Of a stretch of DNA of 20,424 nucleotides, positions 3,225-20,424 are shown piece after piece. Both the position numbers and the translations under genes were made by a program. The notes beneath the pieces are model-generated. The model worked only from the letters and a program-made list of their open reading frames with translations. It was not told the origin of the DNA and did no database searches. How positions within the stretch are numbered: position 1 is the stretch's first letter; the number at the start of each line of letters is the position of its first letter. This stretch comes from a virus. The stretch covers positions 1-20,424 of the IMG/VR virus record IMGVR_UViG_3300050821_001236, one strand, 5' to 3'.

Positions 3225-3236
3225 GGGGCATGACAC

Positions 3237-3674
3237 ATGGCACGTTTCATTACATCAGCGAACAGCGAATTTACCCTCACGATTCCAGGGGTATTTTCCG
3301 GGCCTGTCATCCTCCAAGGCTACGCGGTCGACGACGCGTTCGGCACGGCGAACGTCAAGCCGACCGAGGCCAAGCAGGGCGTTGACGCGAAGAAATCTTC
3401 AGGTCGCACGCCGTATCTCGTGGTCATGAAAGTTCACCTGATGCCGGACAGTCCCGCGATTGATATTTTCGACCAGTGGAATGGCGCCATAGCAGCCGTG
3501 AACGATGACTTGCCGGCGTCTGAAGGTTCCATCTGGGCACCGTCGCTCGGCAAAGCGTGGGCGTGCTCGAACGGTTCGCTGACCGAGTACAGCCCCGTCC
3601 CGGCCGCCAAGAAACTGTTCGAGGCGCAGGAATATGAGATCACGTGGGAACTCGTCCAGGTTTCTAACGTCTAG
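3237..3674 (+). CDS. Tail tube protein
   Basis: Probable inner tail tube subunit, 145 residues. It starts 12 bases after the sheath stop with an AGGGGC ribosome binding site and ATG at 3237. Position right after the sheath gene and before the tail chaperone/tape measure is the invariant place of the tube gene in contractile-tailed phages. The sequence is predicted mostly beta (SEFTLTIPGVFSGPVILQGYAVDD, TPYLVVMKVHLMP, YEITWELVQVS), as expected for a tube fold, with a central loop rich in Asp/Lys. It has no signal peptide or membrane segment. The role is inferred mainly from size and synteny, which are strong here. Confidence 0.8.
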   Translation: MARFITSANSEFTLTIPGVFSGPVILQGYAVDDAFGTANVKPTEAKQGVDAKKSSGRTPYLVVMKVHLMPDSPAIDIFDQWNGAIAAVNDDLPASEGSIWAPSLGKAWACSNGSLTEYSPVPAAKKLFEAQEYEITWELVQVSNV

Positions 3675-15553: not shown

Positions 15554-16026
15554 CAGCTCTACTCGCCCTCATTCCTTCGCGTGCATACCTGTACGGCGCC
15601 ATCGTTCTCGTGCTCGCCCTCGCGTTCGGCGGCTACACGATTCACGAGCGCGGCGTGCAGCACGCGAAGGACATAGCCGCAGAGACCAAGGCCGTTACGA
15701 AAGCCAACGTTGTTGTGGCGGCTGATGACGCCCACGCTCAAACCACGGAGACCCAAAATGCGATCATTTATAGACAGGCTGTTGCGATTCCTGCCATTGC
15801 TGATATTGGCCTCGTGTGCCAGCACGCCGCCCGTAGTGTTCCATTGCCCGCGGCCGGCGCCGTCACAGCAACCCCAGCTCGAGACAGTCAAGCCGACAGT
15901 GGAAGCGGACATGCAGCTGACCCTTCAGGAGCTATTCTGACGCGAGCGCGCGACGCTGACGCGCAGATATCCTACCTACAGGGCCGCGTCGCCGAGCTTG
16001 AGAAACAGATGAGAGACGCGCCCTAA
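15550..16026 (+). CDS. Rz: Inner-membrane spanin (Rz-like)
   Basis: Inner-membrane spanin of 158 residues, starting at ATG 15550 and overlapping the upstream stop (ATGA). The N-terminal segment (YLYGAIVLVLALAFGGYTIHERG, about 13-35) is the single membrane anchor. The periplasmic part begins with a helical stretch (HAKDIAAETKAVTKANVVVAADDA) and ends with a coiled coil (ILTRARDADAQISYLQGRVAELEKQM). The middle (about 90-130) is Ala/Pro/Ser-rich and lies where the second gene is encoded in the alternative frame, which probably explains its low complexity. It would pair with Rz1 to fuse inner and outer membranes at the last step of lysis. The stop TAA (16024-16026) overlaps the stop of the convergent polymerase gene. 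Confidence 0.8.
   Translation: MTALLALIPSRAYLYGAIVLVLALAFGGYTIHERGVQHAKDIAAETKAVTKANVVVAADDAHAQTTETQNAIIYRQAVAIPAIADIGLVCQHAARSVPLPAAGAVTATPARDSQADSGSGHAADPSGAILTRARDADAQISYLQGRVAELEKQMRDAP
15758..15940 (+). CDS. Rz1: Outer-membrane spanin lipoprotein (Rz1-like), embedded
   Basis: Lipoprotein of 60 residues in the +1 frame entirely inside Rz, starting at ATG 15758 with GGAG (15747-15750) 7 bases upstream. The signal peptide MRSFIDRLLRFLPLLILASC ends in the lipobox L-A-S-C with the lipidated Cys at residue 20. The mature 41 residues are Pro-rich at first (STPPVVFHCPRPAPSQQPQ) and end in a helix, as in lambda Rz1. Together with Rz it forms the spanin complex across the periplasm. The nested arrangement matches the lambda type. 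An upstream ATG in the same frame (15710 area) has no good ribosome site and would spoil the signal peptide. Confidence 0.85.
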   Translation: MRSFIDRLLRFLPLLILASCASTPPVVFHCPRPAPSQQPQLETVKPTVEADMQLTLQELF

Positions 16027-18293
16027 TCCCATTTGCCATAACGCGGTCCGCGCCATCCGCCGCGTGCGAATATCGGCCAGCCCTTAGCGTAGTCTGGTAG
16101 ATCATTGAGGGCAGCTTCGAAGTGCTTGACATAGTCGTCAGGTTTTAGGCCCGGGTCGCAACGTTCGTCGATTTCGCTCACTGTCTCGTCATAGGTGTGC
16201 ATCACGATCGGGTACCCGAGGCGCGTCACGTTCTCCATGCCATGCATCTGAATGTCGCGGGCCGTGCCGCCGGTTGCGTTCTGCGTGAGCACCCCGCCGT
16301 ACAAATCTTGTTGTATCCAGTCGGGCGGCCCCTTATCTGGATTCGTGTTCCAACCCCAGTACGACAGCGCCAGTTCCCACGGGCTCGCCCATTGACGCGT
16401 AGCCTGCGTGAGTCGTGGCTGATGATACGATATGCACCGACCGCTCGGCAGCTGCATGTACAGACAATCGTCGGCGCCAACTTGAAATACGATCGTTTTC
16501 GCGCGGTTGCCGTAGAATGCTTTGCCCGGTTCCTGGACGGCCTGAATAGCCGCACCCTCTAGCCCGTAGAGTTCCTGCCGCTCCGGCGCATAACTGCCGT
16601 CCGGCGCGCGGTTGAATTTGTTGCGCGTCTGCCCGCCCCATAGCTCTACCGTGTTGGGTACGGTATCGCGATAGCCGAGGATCGCCTGCTTGATTTCTTG
16701 ATCGTCGCGATAGTATTTGTCGGCCCCGAATTTTTTCCATCCGTTGATCCAGGACGCATAACCCCCAGACAGCTTCGCGAGCTTGCCTTGCTGCCGCAGC
16801 GGATGGTGTTTTCCGCCGCGGATTCCGTCCATGTGGTCGCGACCATTCACGAACACGCCGCCTGTATCGATTCGGTGCTTGACGAAATCCTCGAATGGCG
16901 TGCCGGTCATACGGGCGATTTGTGCCTCGTAGATCATGCCGTGCGTTCGGTGAACGTCGAGTACCCAATCCTCGCCCGCGAGCGCTGCAAGCACGACGTC
17001 CTCGATTGCAGAGTAATCGGACGAGATCAGCGTCTTACCCGGGCCAGCCACGAACAACGAGCGCAAGCAGTTGTTTACGACGTCGAGGGCGCCAAGCTTA
17101 GGATATGCCGCCTCGACCGCGGCAAGCGAACGTGTCGCTATAACCTTGAGCGCGGCATCAACCTCCTCAGTCGTGTGCCAGTCGCCTTTATATAGGTTCG
17201 CTGGCTGTGGACCATATCCGCCGGTTCTACCGTGGTGAGTCGCATGCATCATGTACATGCCATGAACTCTGCCGTCACTCGCTGTCATCGCCTGCAGGGC
17301 GTATAGTTTCTTGACACTTGCTGACCCGAGCATCTGTCGAATCTGCAGCACACGCAAGCACGGATCTACCACGCCACCGTGAGCGGCCGTTTCAAGCGTG
17401 AGCCGGTCGACTGTAGCCGAGATTGTTTTCTCGGTCATGTCGTACATGCCAACGCCGCGGGCCGCGAGCCATCCTTGCAACTGTTTCAGCTCGGTTGGTT
17501 CAATGCCGCCGGTCAGCGTGCGGAATTCTTCGCCATACCGGTGGTAAGCTTGCTCCACAATCGAAATGCAGTCTGCGATCCCTTTCGAATCGACGGCCAT
17601 GCCTCGGTCGTTGATTTGCTGGTCGAGGAACCATCGCCGCTGTTCGTCGGGTGACAGATCGGGCAGGGCAGAGGACACTTGAAATTCCGAACGAATATCG
17701 GTGAGGTTGTACGATTTATACCGTTGCCATTCATCGGGGGCCTCGTGGGGTAGTGTGATAACGCGCGGGTCTTTTTTGGTCGGCTGCCGCGGGATTGAAA
17801 ATAACTTCATCAGCCGATCGCCGTCTTTGTCTTTTTTAATCGGCGTGTCGAGAACCTGTGTCACGTGCTCGAGCTTGCCCGGGTATCCGGCGGCACGAGC
17901 CTTGACAGCACTGCACCGCTGCTGCTCGATTCGTAGGAGGGGCCAGTGCCATTTAGGCACACAGAAATAATTCCAGACTTCGCGTTCAAACTCTGCGTTA
18001 TGGCTCTCGAGGAGGCCGCCACGCTCCACGTGTTCGAACAGCGGGGCCAGCACGTCGAAGGACTGCCCGTACTCCCACTGCCACGCGGTTGCACCGTCGT
18101 ACTGCGGCGTCAAATCGAATGCAAGCAGTTGCGGGAAAAACGTCGCATGCTCAACATATACGCGGATTCCGACGGCGCCTAGGCCGCGTTTCTGATTTGA
18201 GAAACCGGGCAACGATTCCCAGCGACCGAGGCCGTCCGGCGTCCACAGAAACCCGGCAAACGATACGGTTTCGAAGTCTGCTACTGGGATCAT
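16023..18293 (-). CDS. Family A DNA polymerase with 3'-5' exonuclease
   Basis: Replicative phage polymerase of 756 residues. The exonuclease domain shows ExoI D6-x-E8 (ADFET), ExoII H98-N99 with E103 (SHNAEFE), and ExoIII Y195-D199 (YNLTD). The polymerase domain has HHGRTGGYGPQPANL (353-367), motif A SSDYSAIE (424-431), motif B R500-K504-Y512 (RQQGKLAKLSGGY) and motif C HTYDE (699-703). In motif C the usual HDE is YDE with a His two positions earlier. There is no 5'-3' exonuclease domain. The only ATG possible is at 18293, since an in-frame stop lies at 18324-18326. It has no ribosome binding site and is directly preceded by a terminator-like hairpin with six T. The gene follows nuclease and SSB genes, a common phage replication order. 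Confidence 0.92.
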   Translation of the reverse strand: MIPVADFETVSFAGFLWTPDGLGRWESLPGFSNQKRGLGAVGIRVYVEHATFFPQLLAFDLTPQYDGATAWQWEYGQSFDVLAPLFEHVERGGLLESHNAEFEREVWNYFCVPKWHWPLLRIEQQRCSAVKARAAGYPGKLEHVTQVLDTPIKKDKDGDRLMKLFSIPRQPTKKDPRVITLPHEAPDEWQRYKSYNLTDIRSEFQVSSALPDLSPDEQRRWFLDQQINDRGMAVDSKGIADCISIVEQAYHRYGEEFRTLTGGIEPTELKQLQGWLAARGVGMYDMTEKTISATVDRLTLETAAHGGVVDPCLRVLQIRQMLGSASVKKLYALQAMTASDGRVHGMYMMHATHHGRTGGYGPQPANLYKGDWHTTEEVDAALKVIATRSLAAVEAAYPKLGALDVVNNCLRSLFVAGPGKTLISSDYSAIEDVVLAALAGEDWVLDVHRTHGMIYEAQIARMTGTPFEDFVKHRIDTGGVFVNGRDHMDGIRGGKHHPLRQQGKLAKLSGGYASWINGWKKFGADKYYRDDQEIKQAILGYRDTVPNTVELWGGQTRNKFNRAPDGSYAPERQELYGLEGAAIQAVQEPGKAFYGNRAKTIVFQVGADDCLYMQLPSGRCISYHQPRLTQATRQWASPWELALSYWGWNTNPDKGPPDWIQQDLYGGVLTQNATGGTARDIQMHGMENVTRLGYPIVMHTYDETVSEIDERCDPGLKPDDYVKHFEAALNDLPDYAKGWPIFARGGWRGPRYGKWD

Positions 18294-18320
18294 AAAAAAC
18301 GCCCGGCGGTTAAGCCGGGC
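18294..18320 (-). terminator. Intrinsic terminator immediately before polymerase start
   Basis: Read on the minus strand: GCCCGGC, loop TTAACC, GCCGGGC, G, then TTTTTT running straight into the polymerase ATG. The stem is seven perfect GC-rich pairs, followed one base later by six T, a classical Rho-independent terminator. It would end transcripts from the nuclease-SSB genes. Nothing comparable lies on the plus strand side. If it works, polymerase expression needs leakage, antitermination or a start inside the gap. Confidence 0.8.
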
Positions 18321-18362
18321 CAGTTATGACAGCCCTCGCGGGGATGGTGCGGGGCGGCCGTT

Positions 18363-18476
18363 TCAAAACGGGATGCAGTCATCGTCGCAGTCCGGCCATT
18401 CCCACACGGCCGCCGGCTTTCCAGCGTAGCGACCGTGTGGATTCCATACAGCCTGATGGCCGCTGCAACAATCCAG
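18363..18476 (-). other. In-frame open extension after SSB TGA, ending in SSB-like acidic tip
   Basis: Directly after the TGA (18477-18479) of the ssDNA-binding protein gene the same frame stays open for 37 codons and stops at TGA 18363-18365. It begins LDCCSGHQAVWNPHGRYAG and ends WEWPDCDDDCIPF. The last nine residues closely resemble the bacterial SSB C-terminal tip DFDDDIPF, which recruits SSB partner proteins. The stop context is TGA followed by C. No ATG is present in the stretch; CTG is the first codon. It may be reached by UGA readthrough, may be a remnant separated by a recent nonsense change, or may be chance. Readthrough would give about 345 residues. Confidence 0.5.
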
Positions 18477-19400
18477 TCAGCCCACGTACCCGTCAGCCCG
18501 CAGCTGTGCGTCAGTCCAGCCCTGTGCCACGTAGGCGGCGTAGGCGATTCCTTTGTGCGGCGGCCGAGCGACCGGCGCGGGAGGTGCTGCCGGAGCTGCA
18601 GCGGGCGGCGGGGGCGCGGCGGCCACCGTAGGGATTCCCATGATTGCCGGGGCCGGGACTACGGCCGTAGGAGGGGCGGCAACGGCCGGCAGGGGGGCCG
18701 GAATCGCCGGAGAGGGCGCAGGAGCGGCGCTCGGCGCGGGGGCGGGCATTGCGACGGCCGCGGGCATCGTGGAGGCGCCAGCGGGCACTGCGCCGCCGAA
18801 TTTGCCCTTTACGTCGACACCCCGGGTGACGATTTCCGGCAGGTAGGCGCGCAGGCCGACGGCGTTGTGATTAAGGTAAACGCCGGGGGATGATCCCGTG
18901 TTGCCTTTGACCGTGCCCACGACTTGGATGACATGGCCGGGGCGCACCGCGTCCTTATCGTTCATCGGCACGGGGTTTTCCGGGTTGGTCAGCGCGTTGT
19001 AGATCGCCGGGGCGAACGCGGACTGCAGCCGCAGCACCCAACAACCTTTCCAGCCTTCGCGGTCACACGGCCGAACCTTCGATTTCGACTTGGTCGGGAT
19101 CACGGTCGAGTCGCCATCGTAAATCTTCCACGAGAAATCAGGGCGTTGTGCCTCGCCTCCCGGGAACGCTGCGTGGCCGGCGGCCCAGATCGTTTGGCCC
19201 CAGCCCGGCTCGCTGCCCCAATGGGCGGCCGTCTTGGGGAGCGCCAAGCCGATCACGTAAAGCTGCGTGTCTTTGCCGGCGTCCGGACCGTTCTTGATTT
19301 TCATCCGGTTGCCGTCGAAATCTTCGGTTTCCGGCTCGTAGAGATCGCCGAACACGAAACGACCCGGCGAGGTGGTCAATTCAACTGCTGTCTTGCTCAA
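18477..19400 (-). CDS. Phage ssDNA-binding protein (DUF2815-like)
   Basis: Predicted single-stranded DNA-binding protein of 307 residues. I chose TTG at 19400 because AGGAG (19409-19413) is 8 bases upstream; a GTG at 19457 would start inside a hairpin without such a site. Residues 1-200 fit an OB-fold ssDNA-binding protein of the DUF2815 type: GRFVFGDLYEPETEDFDGNRM, LYVIGLALPK, GCWVLRLQSAFAPAIYN, RPGHVIQVVGTVKGNTGSSPGVYLNHNAVGLRAYLPEI. Residues 204-284 are a Pro/Ala linker like the disordered linker of SSBs. The end AYAAYVAQGWTDAQLRADGY is a short helical motif seen at C-termini of phage proteins. In many phages DUF2800 nuclease, DUF2815 and polA are neighbours, as here. The annotated protein lacks the acidic tip; that sequence lies in frame beyond the stop. 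Confidence 0.78.
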   Translation of the reverse strand: MSKTAVELTTSPGRFVFGDLYEPETEDFDGNRMKIKNGPDAGKDTQLYVIGLALPKTAAHWGSEPGWGQTIWAAGHAAFPGGEAQRPDFSWKIYDGDSTVIPTKSKSKVRPCDREGWKGCWVLRLQSAFAPAIYNALTNPENPVPMNDKDAVRPGHVIQVVGTVKGNTGSSPGVYLNHNAVGLRAYLPEIVTRGVDVKGKFGGAVPAGASTMPAAVAMPAPAPSAAPAPSPAIPAPLPAVAAPPTAVVPAPAIMGIPTVAAAPPPPAAAPAAPPAPVARPPHKGIAYAAYVAQGWTDAQLRADGYVG

Positions 19401-19424
19401 GTTAGAAACTCCTATGATGGTGGA

Positions 19425-19486
19425 GTCTGCGCCCGTCTGTGGGTCCGGTATCCCCACGTGTTAGACCGAATTCTCAGGGCGCAGAC
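19425..19486 (-). promoter_or_regulatory. Structured leader of the ssDNA-binding protein gene
   Basis: A 10-bp perfect inverted repeat (GTCTGCGCCC at 19425-19434 and GGGCGCAGAC at 19477-19486) encloses inner pairs GTCT/AGAC (19435-19438 with 19463-19466) and GTGGG/CCCAC (19439-19443 with 19453-19457), with a 9-base loop. In total 19 pairs form one long bulged hairpin. On the minus-strand transcript it lies between the hairpin-protein stop and the SSB ribosome site, 11 bases before AGGAG. No T tract follows, so it is not a terminator. Control of SSB translation is a reasonable inference. Confidence 0.6.
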
Positions 19487-19498
19487 AATCAACTGATT

Positions 19499-19855
19499 TT
19501 AGACGGCCTCGGTCGGCGTGGTGGGTGGCAGAGCGTCGGCGCCGGTCGGCGCGTCGGGCGCGGCCGAGCTGCTCCCGGGCTGCCCCTTGGGCTCGCTCGT
19601 CGTCGCAGTGCCGGCAGCGGCCGGTTTCGGCGCGGCGGGCACGCCAAACTGCAGGACATGCTTGATCGCCCAAAACGACGCCTCTTCGGCGGCCTTGCGG
19701 GCAAATTCCATCGGCTGTGACGTAAGTTTCTGTCCGTCGGCGTTTGCGTGCATCAGCGTGGACAGGTACTCGTGTACCGAGTTGAACACTTGGCCGACTT
19801 GCGCGGCTGCTTGCTGGCGCTCGGGCGTGATCGTTTGCGGGGCGGGATTCGTCAT
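19499..19855 (-). CDS. Small helical-hairpin protein with Pro-rich tail (possible Acb2/Tad1-hairpin-like)
   Basis: A 118-residue protein, ATG 19855, overlapping the nuclease stop (ATGA), with AAGGAA about 9 bases upstream. Residues 10-72 are predicted as two long helices: RQQAAAQVGQVFNSVHEYLSTLMHAN and PMEFARKAAEEASFWAIKHVLQF. The second helix has the pattern (A-R-x3-E-E-A-x-x-W-A-x-K-H) that I associate with small phage proteins grouped as Acb2/Tad1 hairpin-like, some of which sequester cyclic nucleotide signals of CBASS or Thoeris defence. Residues 73-118 are a Pro/Ala/Ser-rich tail. The match is by eye only. The alternative is a plain replication accessory protein co-expressed with nuclease and SSB. 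Function is not established. Confidence 0.55.
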   Translation of the reverse strand: MTNPAPQTITPERQQAAAQVGQVFNSVHEYLSTLMHANADGQKLTSQPMEFARKAAEEASFWAIKHVLQFGVPAAPKPAAAGTATTSEPKGQPGSSSAAPDAPTGADALPPTTPTEAV

Positions 19856-20424
19856 GTCGTAAATTTCCTTGCGGTTTTGGTGGTTTCGGGAACTAGTTTG
19901 AACGCTCCCTTAGGGCGATCACTATACTGACTGACAATCGCGTCAGCAAGTATTTTTCGTTGCTTGGCCTGCGTCGGTGTGATCGGTTTGACTGGCGCCA
20001 TAACAGACTTGCCGTTCATTTGCGCTGTCATCTCGACGATTTCAATCGGCATCGTCCACGCGAGCCGGCCTTCCGACTGTTCAAGCATGAAATGTGGGAC
20101 GCGTTTGCCGGCGCGAATCATTCCCTCGGCGAGAGCTGATAGGCCCGTCTCGCGCGCCTCGAGCCGTTTGATGAATTCCTGGACAACCTTCAGCTCACGG
20201 CCGACGTCCTCGGGCGTAGACACCATCGGATCAGCGCGACCGGCGAAGTCGATTCCGTTCATAACCGTTTTCGCGTACGTCTTGCAGACCGCGCGTGCGG
20301 GGCAGTACGTGCAGTGCGTGCCGCTAATTACGCGCGGATTGGCCGACTCGGCCTCGTTGATCGCGTGACGCATGCGTTCGGAATAGAAATGCAGCCCTTC
20401 GCGGCCGATCGTCCAAGTACGTAT
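19852..20424 (-). CDS. DUF2800 / Cas4-RecB-like nuclease, C-terminal part
   Basis: The frame is open to the window edge, so the 5' part of the gene lies outside; 190 residues are visible, starting IRTWTIGREGLHFYSERM. The block NPRVISGTHCTYCPARAVCKTYAK has the C-x2-C-x5-C cysteine pattern that closes the nuclease fold in DUF2800/Cas4/AddB-like PD-(D/E)XK proteins and usually binds an Fe-S cluster. The catalytic residues would be upstream and cannot be checked. The C-terminal 100 residues (ELKVVQEFIKRLEARETGLSALAEGMIRAGKRVPHFMLEQSEGRLAW) fit the helical end of DUF2800 proteins. The stop overlaps the next gene (ATGA). Linkage to an SSB and a family A polymerase supports a role in phage DNA recombination or end processing. 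Confidence 0.75.
   Translation of the reverse strand: MRTWTIGREGLHFYSERMRHAINEAESANPRVISGTHCTYCPARAVCKTYAKTVMNGIDFAGRADPMVSTPEDVGRELKVVQEFIKRLEARETGLSALAEGMIRAGKRVPHFMLEQSEGRLAWTMPIEIVEMTAQMNGKSVMAPVKPITPTQAKQRKILADAIVSQYSDRPKGAFKLVPETTKTARKFTT

Follow-up and report, generated by a model that had tools for sequence, protein, structure and literature searches.

The C-terminal tip of bacterial SSB, DFDDDIPF, recruits RecO, PriA and other proteins. In the RNA phage Qbeta, a leaky UGA gives rise to A1, a minor form of the coat protein carrying a long C-terminal extension. The SSB of phage HK620 loads the annealing protein Sak4 through its tip, NDYPPF (PMC5928155), and annealing proteins recognise SSB ends (PMC10711431). 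C-terminal modules added by recoding are known for phage structural genes, namely tail chaperones and Ig-like domains (PMC5009743): in lambda G-GT and in the Listeria phage PSA, recoding fixes a small ratio of two C-terminal forms, by means of a -1 slippery site and a CCC-stop +1 site, respectively; and the Ig-like domains constitute a portable C-terminal module carried by unrelated phage proteins via -1 or +1 recoding, apparently in either direction. In the literature searched (open-licence papers only; an unseen report is possible), we found neither a recoding case for SSB, RecT or Erf genes nor a description of the tail module reported here.

This module is a conserved, unannotated stretch of about 27-40 aa with the pattern C-x2-GH...DC-x3-C-IPF*. 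It shares with the bacterial SSB tip the acidic residues followed by a C-terminal Ile-Pro-Phe, the long disordered linker and the attachment to a ssDNA-binding protein, but here invariant Cys flank the acidic triplet, C-x2-GH lies ahead of it, and only recoding would give access to the end; we do not claim homology in sequence. The HK620 tip also resembles the bacterial one and recruits an annealing protein, but it is in frame, constitutive, free of Cys and located on a bona fide SSB (PMC5928155). The Ig-like domains are similarly portable; however, they sit on capsid and tail proteins (PMC5009743), whereas here a Cys/His motif of 27-40 aa with an SSB-type C-terminus is carried by ssDNA-binding proteins, annealing proteins and proteins of the recombination cassette, and reading through a UGA appears to serve as a further route. 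The lambda and PSA shifts affect structural genes and involve no peptide module common to unrelated bodies. The Qbeta case shares the leaky UGA and the extended minor phage protein, and differs in the length of the extension and in concerning an RNA-phage coat protein.

The window, that is, the whole stretch of DNA analysed (20,424 nucleotides, IMG/VR virus record IMGVR_UViG_3300050821_001236), includes the following features:

16023..18293, minus strand: family A DNA polymerase, the next gene downstream (phrog_17, E 1.7e-55).
About 18294..18321, minus strand: intrinsic-terminator-like hairpin, GGCCCGGC TTAA CCGCCGGGCG, plus a T run (identified by eye, without a terminator-tool score).
18363..18365, minus strand: TGA stop of the extension.
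18366..18398, minus strand: WPDCDDDCIPF, the second Cys pair and the SSB-type C-terminal IPF.
18366..18476, minus strand: tail module of 37 codons, LDCCSGHQAVWNPHGRYAGKPAAVWEWPDCDDDCIPF, in the same frame as the SSB body.
18456..18470, minus strand: CCSGH, which would form the opening half of the putative zinc knuckle (C-x2-GH); its C, G and H do not vary across a 29-row alignment.
18474..18479, minus strand: candidate readthrough site UGA-CUG, kept in 9 tail-bearing clade members and in 0/24 tail-less relatives.
18477..18479, minus strand: TGA stop of the SSB body.
18477..19457, minus strand: Gp2.5-like ssDNA-binding/annealing protein body, 326 aa, TGA stop included (ORF, GTG start).
19499..19855, minus strand: 118 aa protein between the exonuclease and the SSB (ORF).
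19852..20424, minus strand: DUF2800/exonuclease, truncated by the end of the window (phrog_69).

The SSB body matched phrog_7011 in a profile search (E 2.2e-56, residues 23-324); its coding part runs from 19457 down to 18480 on the minus strand and includes a Pro/Ala linker and the C-terminal end ...GWTDAQLRADGYVG, followed by the TGA. The 118 aa protein had no Pfam or PHROG match. The initial annotation reported 37 in-frame codons beyond this TGA ending in DCDDDCIPF, and we confirmed them (18476-18363 on the minus strand, stop included; the last residues are WPDCDDDCIPF). The extension was also correctly placed before the terminator: the tail stop precedes the GC-rich hairpin and T run (about 18321-18294).

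Compared with DFDDDIPF, the tip DCDDDC-IPF has a Cys in place of the Phe and one additional Cys. The initial annotation considered these Cys unusual, and they do depart from the SSB tip, but they are not peculiar to the window copy: both are invariant in the 29-row alignment, and thus look like zinc ligands rather than a quirk of one sequence. The C-terminal IPF was found in 28 of the 29 rows (VPF in the remaining one), preceded by D or E in nearly all of them; the L081 tail ends in IPW. Averaged over the last 11 codons of 29 copies, entropy was 0.35, 0.39 and 0.92 bits at the first, second and third codon positions of the tail frame, respectively. The invariant ligand pattern C-x3-H ... C-x3-C, together with the AlphaFold2 model of the 37-mer (29 rows; mean pLDDT 88, pTM 0.49), in which a small beta-hairpin is accompanied by a short helix close to CDDDC, suggests a zinc knuckle, with metal binding inferred; beyond its acidic tip, the tail probably forms a zinc knuckle. 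If the Cys on either side of DDD bind zinc, this tip may differ from a free SSB tip. A Foldseek search with the predicted fold returned only a weak PDB match (NEIL2, E 3.6), and none of the 29 members had a Pfam or PHROGs profile match in the tail. Standard ORF calling omits the module from the body protein in every copy found, and no copy joined in frame to its body by a sense codon, that is, without recoding, was found.

TGA-CTG followed by the tail is present in nine distinct viruses (the window, L002, L008, L009, L010, L012, L081, L082 and L084). The nearest IMG/VR relative of the window, L002 (75% identity by tblastn, 84% in the alignment), carries GYTG*LERERMCCSGH...EWPDCDENCIPF* in the body frame. 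In the maximum-likelihood tree of SSB bodies the tail clade had a support of 100/100, and its sole tail-less member, L083, has the stop TAA-CCG (stop at 2365), indicating a joint loss of the tail and the leaky stop. TGA-CTG occurs in 9/9 tailed and 0/24 tail-less relatives (Fisher p 3e-8, uncorrected for kinship). Among the eight intact tails of this clade (L010 was left out), pairwise pS was 0.22-0.98 and pN 0.03-0.36, and dN/dS was 0.04-0.33 where saturation permits (simple Nei-Gojobori counting on short sequences), with divergence at third positions and mostly synonymous differences; on these counts, the tail extension is under purifying selection. The expectation that so specific an in-frame ending would not arise by chance was met, since the relatives carry the same extension beyond the same TGA; the refuting condition set in the initial annotation, homologues with unrelated sequence past the stop, was checked and did not refute its reading. 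Readthrough of the UGA, as proposed in the initial annotation, remains the best reading, given TGA-CTG in all nine tailed members and the selection on the tail; no protein product has been shown.

In L010 and L014, two assemblies of the same virus, TGA-CTG is present and the tip is thrown into another frame by a 4-base tandem duplication (GCAG) in the tail (L010:6082-6250), corresponding to either a lost tail or a further shift. A suppressor tRNA for UGA was also considered; it is unsupported, no tRNA having been found in the 20 kb window or in the UGA-clade loci scanned, all of which are fragments.

Scans for the degenerate ending and one profile search, followed by removal of chance matches, identified 25 distinct further copies of the module beyond the clade of the window. 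The upstream half was absent from the DNA patterns used, but a later filter required C-x2-GH (L046 and L064 were added by eye); it lies 20-40 residues upstream of the ending in 23 of the 25 copies. Pattern matches dropped on inspection as chance were L015-L017, L019, L021, L022, L025, L026, L037, L048-L052, L054-L056, L060, L065 and L066. Each of the 25 is nested, in frame -1, within a longer body ORF extending beyond the tail. The module is present in at least seven unrelated body families, and the nested bodies include: an Erf-like protein (L007, phrog_155); RecT PF03837 (L027, L034) and RecT-like phrog_561 (L020, L034); Gp2.5/Enc34-type SSBs (L031, L033); the SSB-like family phrog_27714 (L018, and L046 by sequence inspection); a relative of N4 gp47 (L057); and several families of unknown function. 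In the loci tested, many nested copies have phrog_69 exonuclease genes, SSB genes or both as neighbours, a layout also seen in the window. The module is a wider family, reached elsewhere by a putative -1 or +1 frameshift, which goes beyond the reading of the initial annotation.

Of the 25 nested copies, 20 have an in-phase X_XXY_YYZ heptamer at a distance of 6-36 nt before the first Cys, against 1/25 in each of the other two phases and 157/4728 (3.3%) in other windows of the same ORFs (binomial p about 1e-25; this value ignores kinship, and the 36 nt window was set after inspection). The heptamers were GGGAAAC (8), CCCTTTY (5), AAAAAAG (3), GGGAAAG (2), CCCAAAG (1) and CCCCCCT (1); L034, L040, L041, L042 and L053 lack a canonical one. 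A_AAA_AAG, G_GGA_AAG and C_CCA_AAG are the most efficient shift motifs measured in E. coli, and C_CCU_UUY is shift-prone too; G_GGA_AAC is weak in E. coli, yet it is employed by IS elements (PMC4066793). Two different RecT-type genes in a single Rhizobium MAG (G001; L020 and L027) carry the same -1 tail past CCCTTTT, a hint that annealing proteins swap their C-terminal modules.

A candidate +1 route was observed in L013 (= L106), where the module lies in the +1 frame across GGT-CCC-TAA-C; CCC_UGA is the +1 site type of the Listeria phage PSA (PMC5009743). The tree sister of L013, L101 (100/99), has no module. In its place, GDSIDDDIPF was observed in the +1 frame directly past the TAG stop of the Gp2.5-like SSB (L101:2396-2509, plus strand; site GTT-TAG-C; the hidden tip reads ...GSGDSIDDDIPF*), close to the tip of the Pseudomonas SSB, DSFDDDIPF (PMC10711431). 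Another Gp2.5-like SSB (L125:35-1066, plus strand) has the in-frame end QDLDDEIPF, so this SSB family can bear a tip without recoding too. It is chiefly on the hidden tip of L101 and the in-frame tip of L125 that the designation of the module as an SSB-type tip rests.

The module was not found in any cultured phage: tblastn of the tail against 50,697 phage records gave only weak unrelated matches, and the hidden tail was absent from the genes examined in the cultured relatives N4, phiEaP8, Zuri, ort11, RHph_X3_15, Scuro, Silvanus and B2. Of the genomes searched, 385 from the class to which the Rhizobium MAG belongs and 369 from that of Acinetobacter, only the seeding Rhizobium MAG was recovered. 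Nearly all copies come from uncultivated viruses or a MAG, and kinship inflates the p-values given above.

We consider it likely, from the sequences compared, that programmed recoding produces a minor isoform ending in an SSB-type zinc-knuckle tip, which would recruit SSB partners. Most ribosomes would halt at the UGA and release the ordinary 326 aa protein, and a small fraction would read through UGA-CUG, adding 37 residues that would fold like a zinc knuckle (Cys-x3-His ... Cys-x3-Cys) and present the acidic IPF tip at their free end. Once on ssDNA, tailed protomers may bring in a restricted number of proteins that bind SSB tips, the candidates being RecO, PriA, ExoI, RecQ and the polymerase chi subunit of the host, or else an annealing protein of the phage, and other phages would attach the same module by a -1 slip at heptamers or a +1 slip at a stop. 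Recoding itself is strongly supported, and the comparison establishes a conserved coding module, conserved putative recoding sites and the lack of independent starts in most copies; expression, recoding rate, zinc binding and partner function are inferred, all the evidence being comparative, with no proteomics, reporter or binding data. Partner recruitment is the most likely role, not shown, because SSB tips recruit RecO and PriA, the HK620 tip loads Sak4 and annealing proteins recognise SSB ends. The placing of the module by -1 or +1 shift on unrelated phage ssDNA-annealing proteins and on further members of the same recombination cassette makes a low, ribosome-set dose seem the selected property, and the convergence of three putative recoding mechanisms on one product speaks for strong selection on the dose of SSB-tip recruitment. 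The broader proposal, to which we give about even chances, is of a portable, recoding-gated recruitment tag: an undescribed zinc-knuckle SSB-tip module gained repeatedly by unrelated ssDNA-binding and annealing genes, always past a recoding site, with the ribosome fixing what proportion of filament subunits can recruit SSB-tip partners. If true, programmed recoding would govern the composition of ssDNA-protein filaments, which was not found in the literature searched, and phage SSBs and annealing proteins seemingly devoid of an SSB-type tip would be explained by a tip hidden past a stop or in another frame.

Recoding could be real and the module something other than an SSB tip, for instance a tag for turnover, or a zinc knuckle that has DNA or the adjacent exonuclease as its binding partner. 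The invariant C, G, H, C and C, the confident predicted fold, the several nested bodies that are not known ssDNA-binding proteins and the phrog_69 exonuclease gene adjoining tailed genes at several other loci tested all fit such a role, which we regard as unlikely but a serious contender; against it, the exact IPF end follows acidic residues in almost every row, and the sister L101 has a textbook SSB tip in the same place and likewise out of frame. Independent initiation of the tail as a small zinc-knuckle protein, restarted at the CTG or a nearby ATG and supplying a free SSB-tip peptide in trans, is improbable. Reinitiation is possible in three members of the UGA clade, L002, L009 and L012, with an in-frame ATG directly before CC, and TGA-CTG is itself compatible with a CTG restart, which has no evident Shine-Dalgarno on sequence inspection. 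The window extension, however, holds no ATG, GTG or TTG in frame before the Cys cluster, its sole NTG being the CTG directly past the TGA, in agreement with the earlier remark that it lacks a good start codon; the same three codons are missing in L008, in L013 and in the tail frame before the Cys of 20 of the 23 nested copies examined (in several, no more than 3-8 codons are open at that point), which rules out an independent gene as a general account of the module; with such a start, the in-phase slippery heptamers would be needless.

A conserved nucleic-acid element or selfish insertion, with translation irrelevant, would account for the scattering of the module across unrelated genes and for the nearly fixed third bases in TGCATCCCCTTCTGA of the nested copies (TGC, ATC and TTC are the more constrained codons of the tip). 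These bases are fixed only under overlap with a second frame, where an A or T in third position would introduce Tyr, Phe or Val in the linker of the body; dual coding is, by inference, a sufficient explanation. The UGA clade lacks such an overlap with a second body frame, and there the third positions of the tip vary freely and dN/dS is low; the entropy over the 29 copies follows the codon positions of the tail frame. We hold this explanation to be very improbable. A recent nonsense mutation or sequencing error, put forward as an alternative in the initial annotation, would have split a normal in-frame tail from the SSB, and the window tail is indeed in frame with its body. Conservation excludes this: TGA-CTG is common to nine distinct viral contigs, the TGA being conserved in every tail-bearing clade member, and the alignment of homologues revealed no sense-codon fusion. 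Programmed recoding yielding a tailed minor isoform remains the preferred reading.

RNA structure downstream of the candidate sites varied among the copies, and its weakness in the window and most others is a point against the recoding reading. The only clearly strong hairpins were found right past the SSB stop in L008 (z -5.5) and L013 (z -4.8); the window value was not strong (z -0.8), and the -1 copies were mostly between -1.3 and +2, with L007 at -2.5. In L007, ARAGORN called a tRNA-Trp(CCA) at 3225-3295 (minus strand), inside the Erf-like annealing reading frame and just upstream of the -1 tail.
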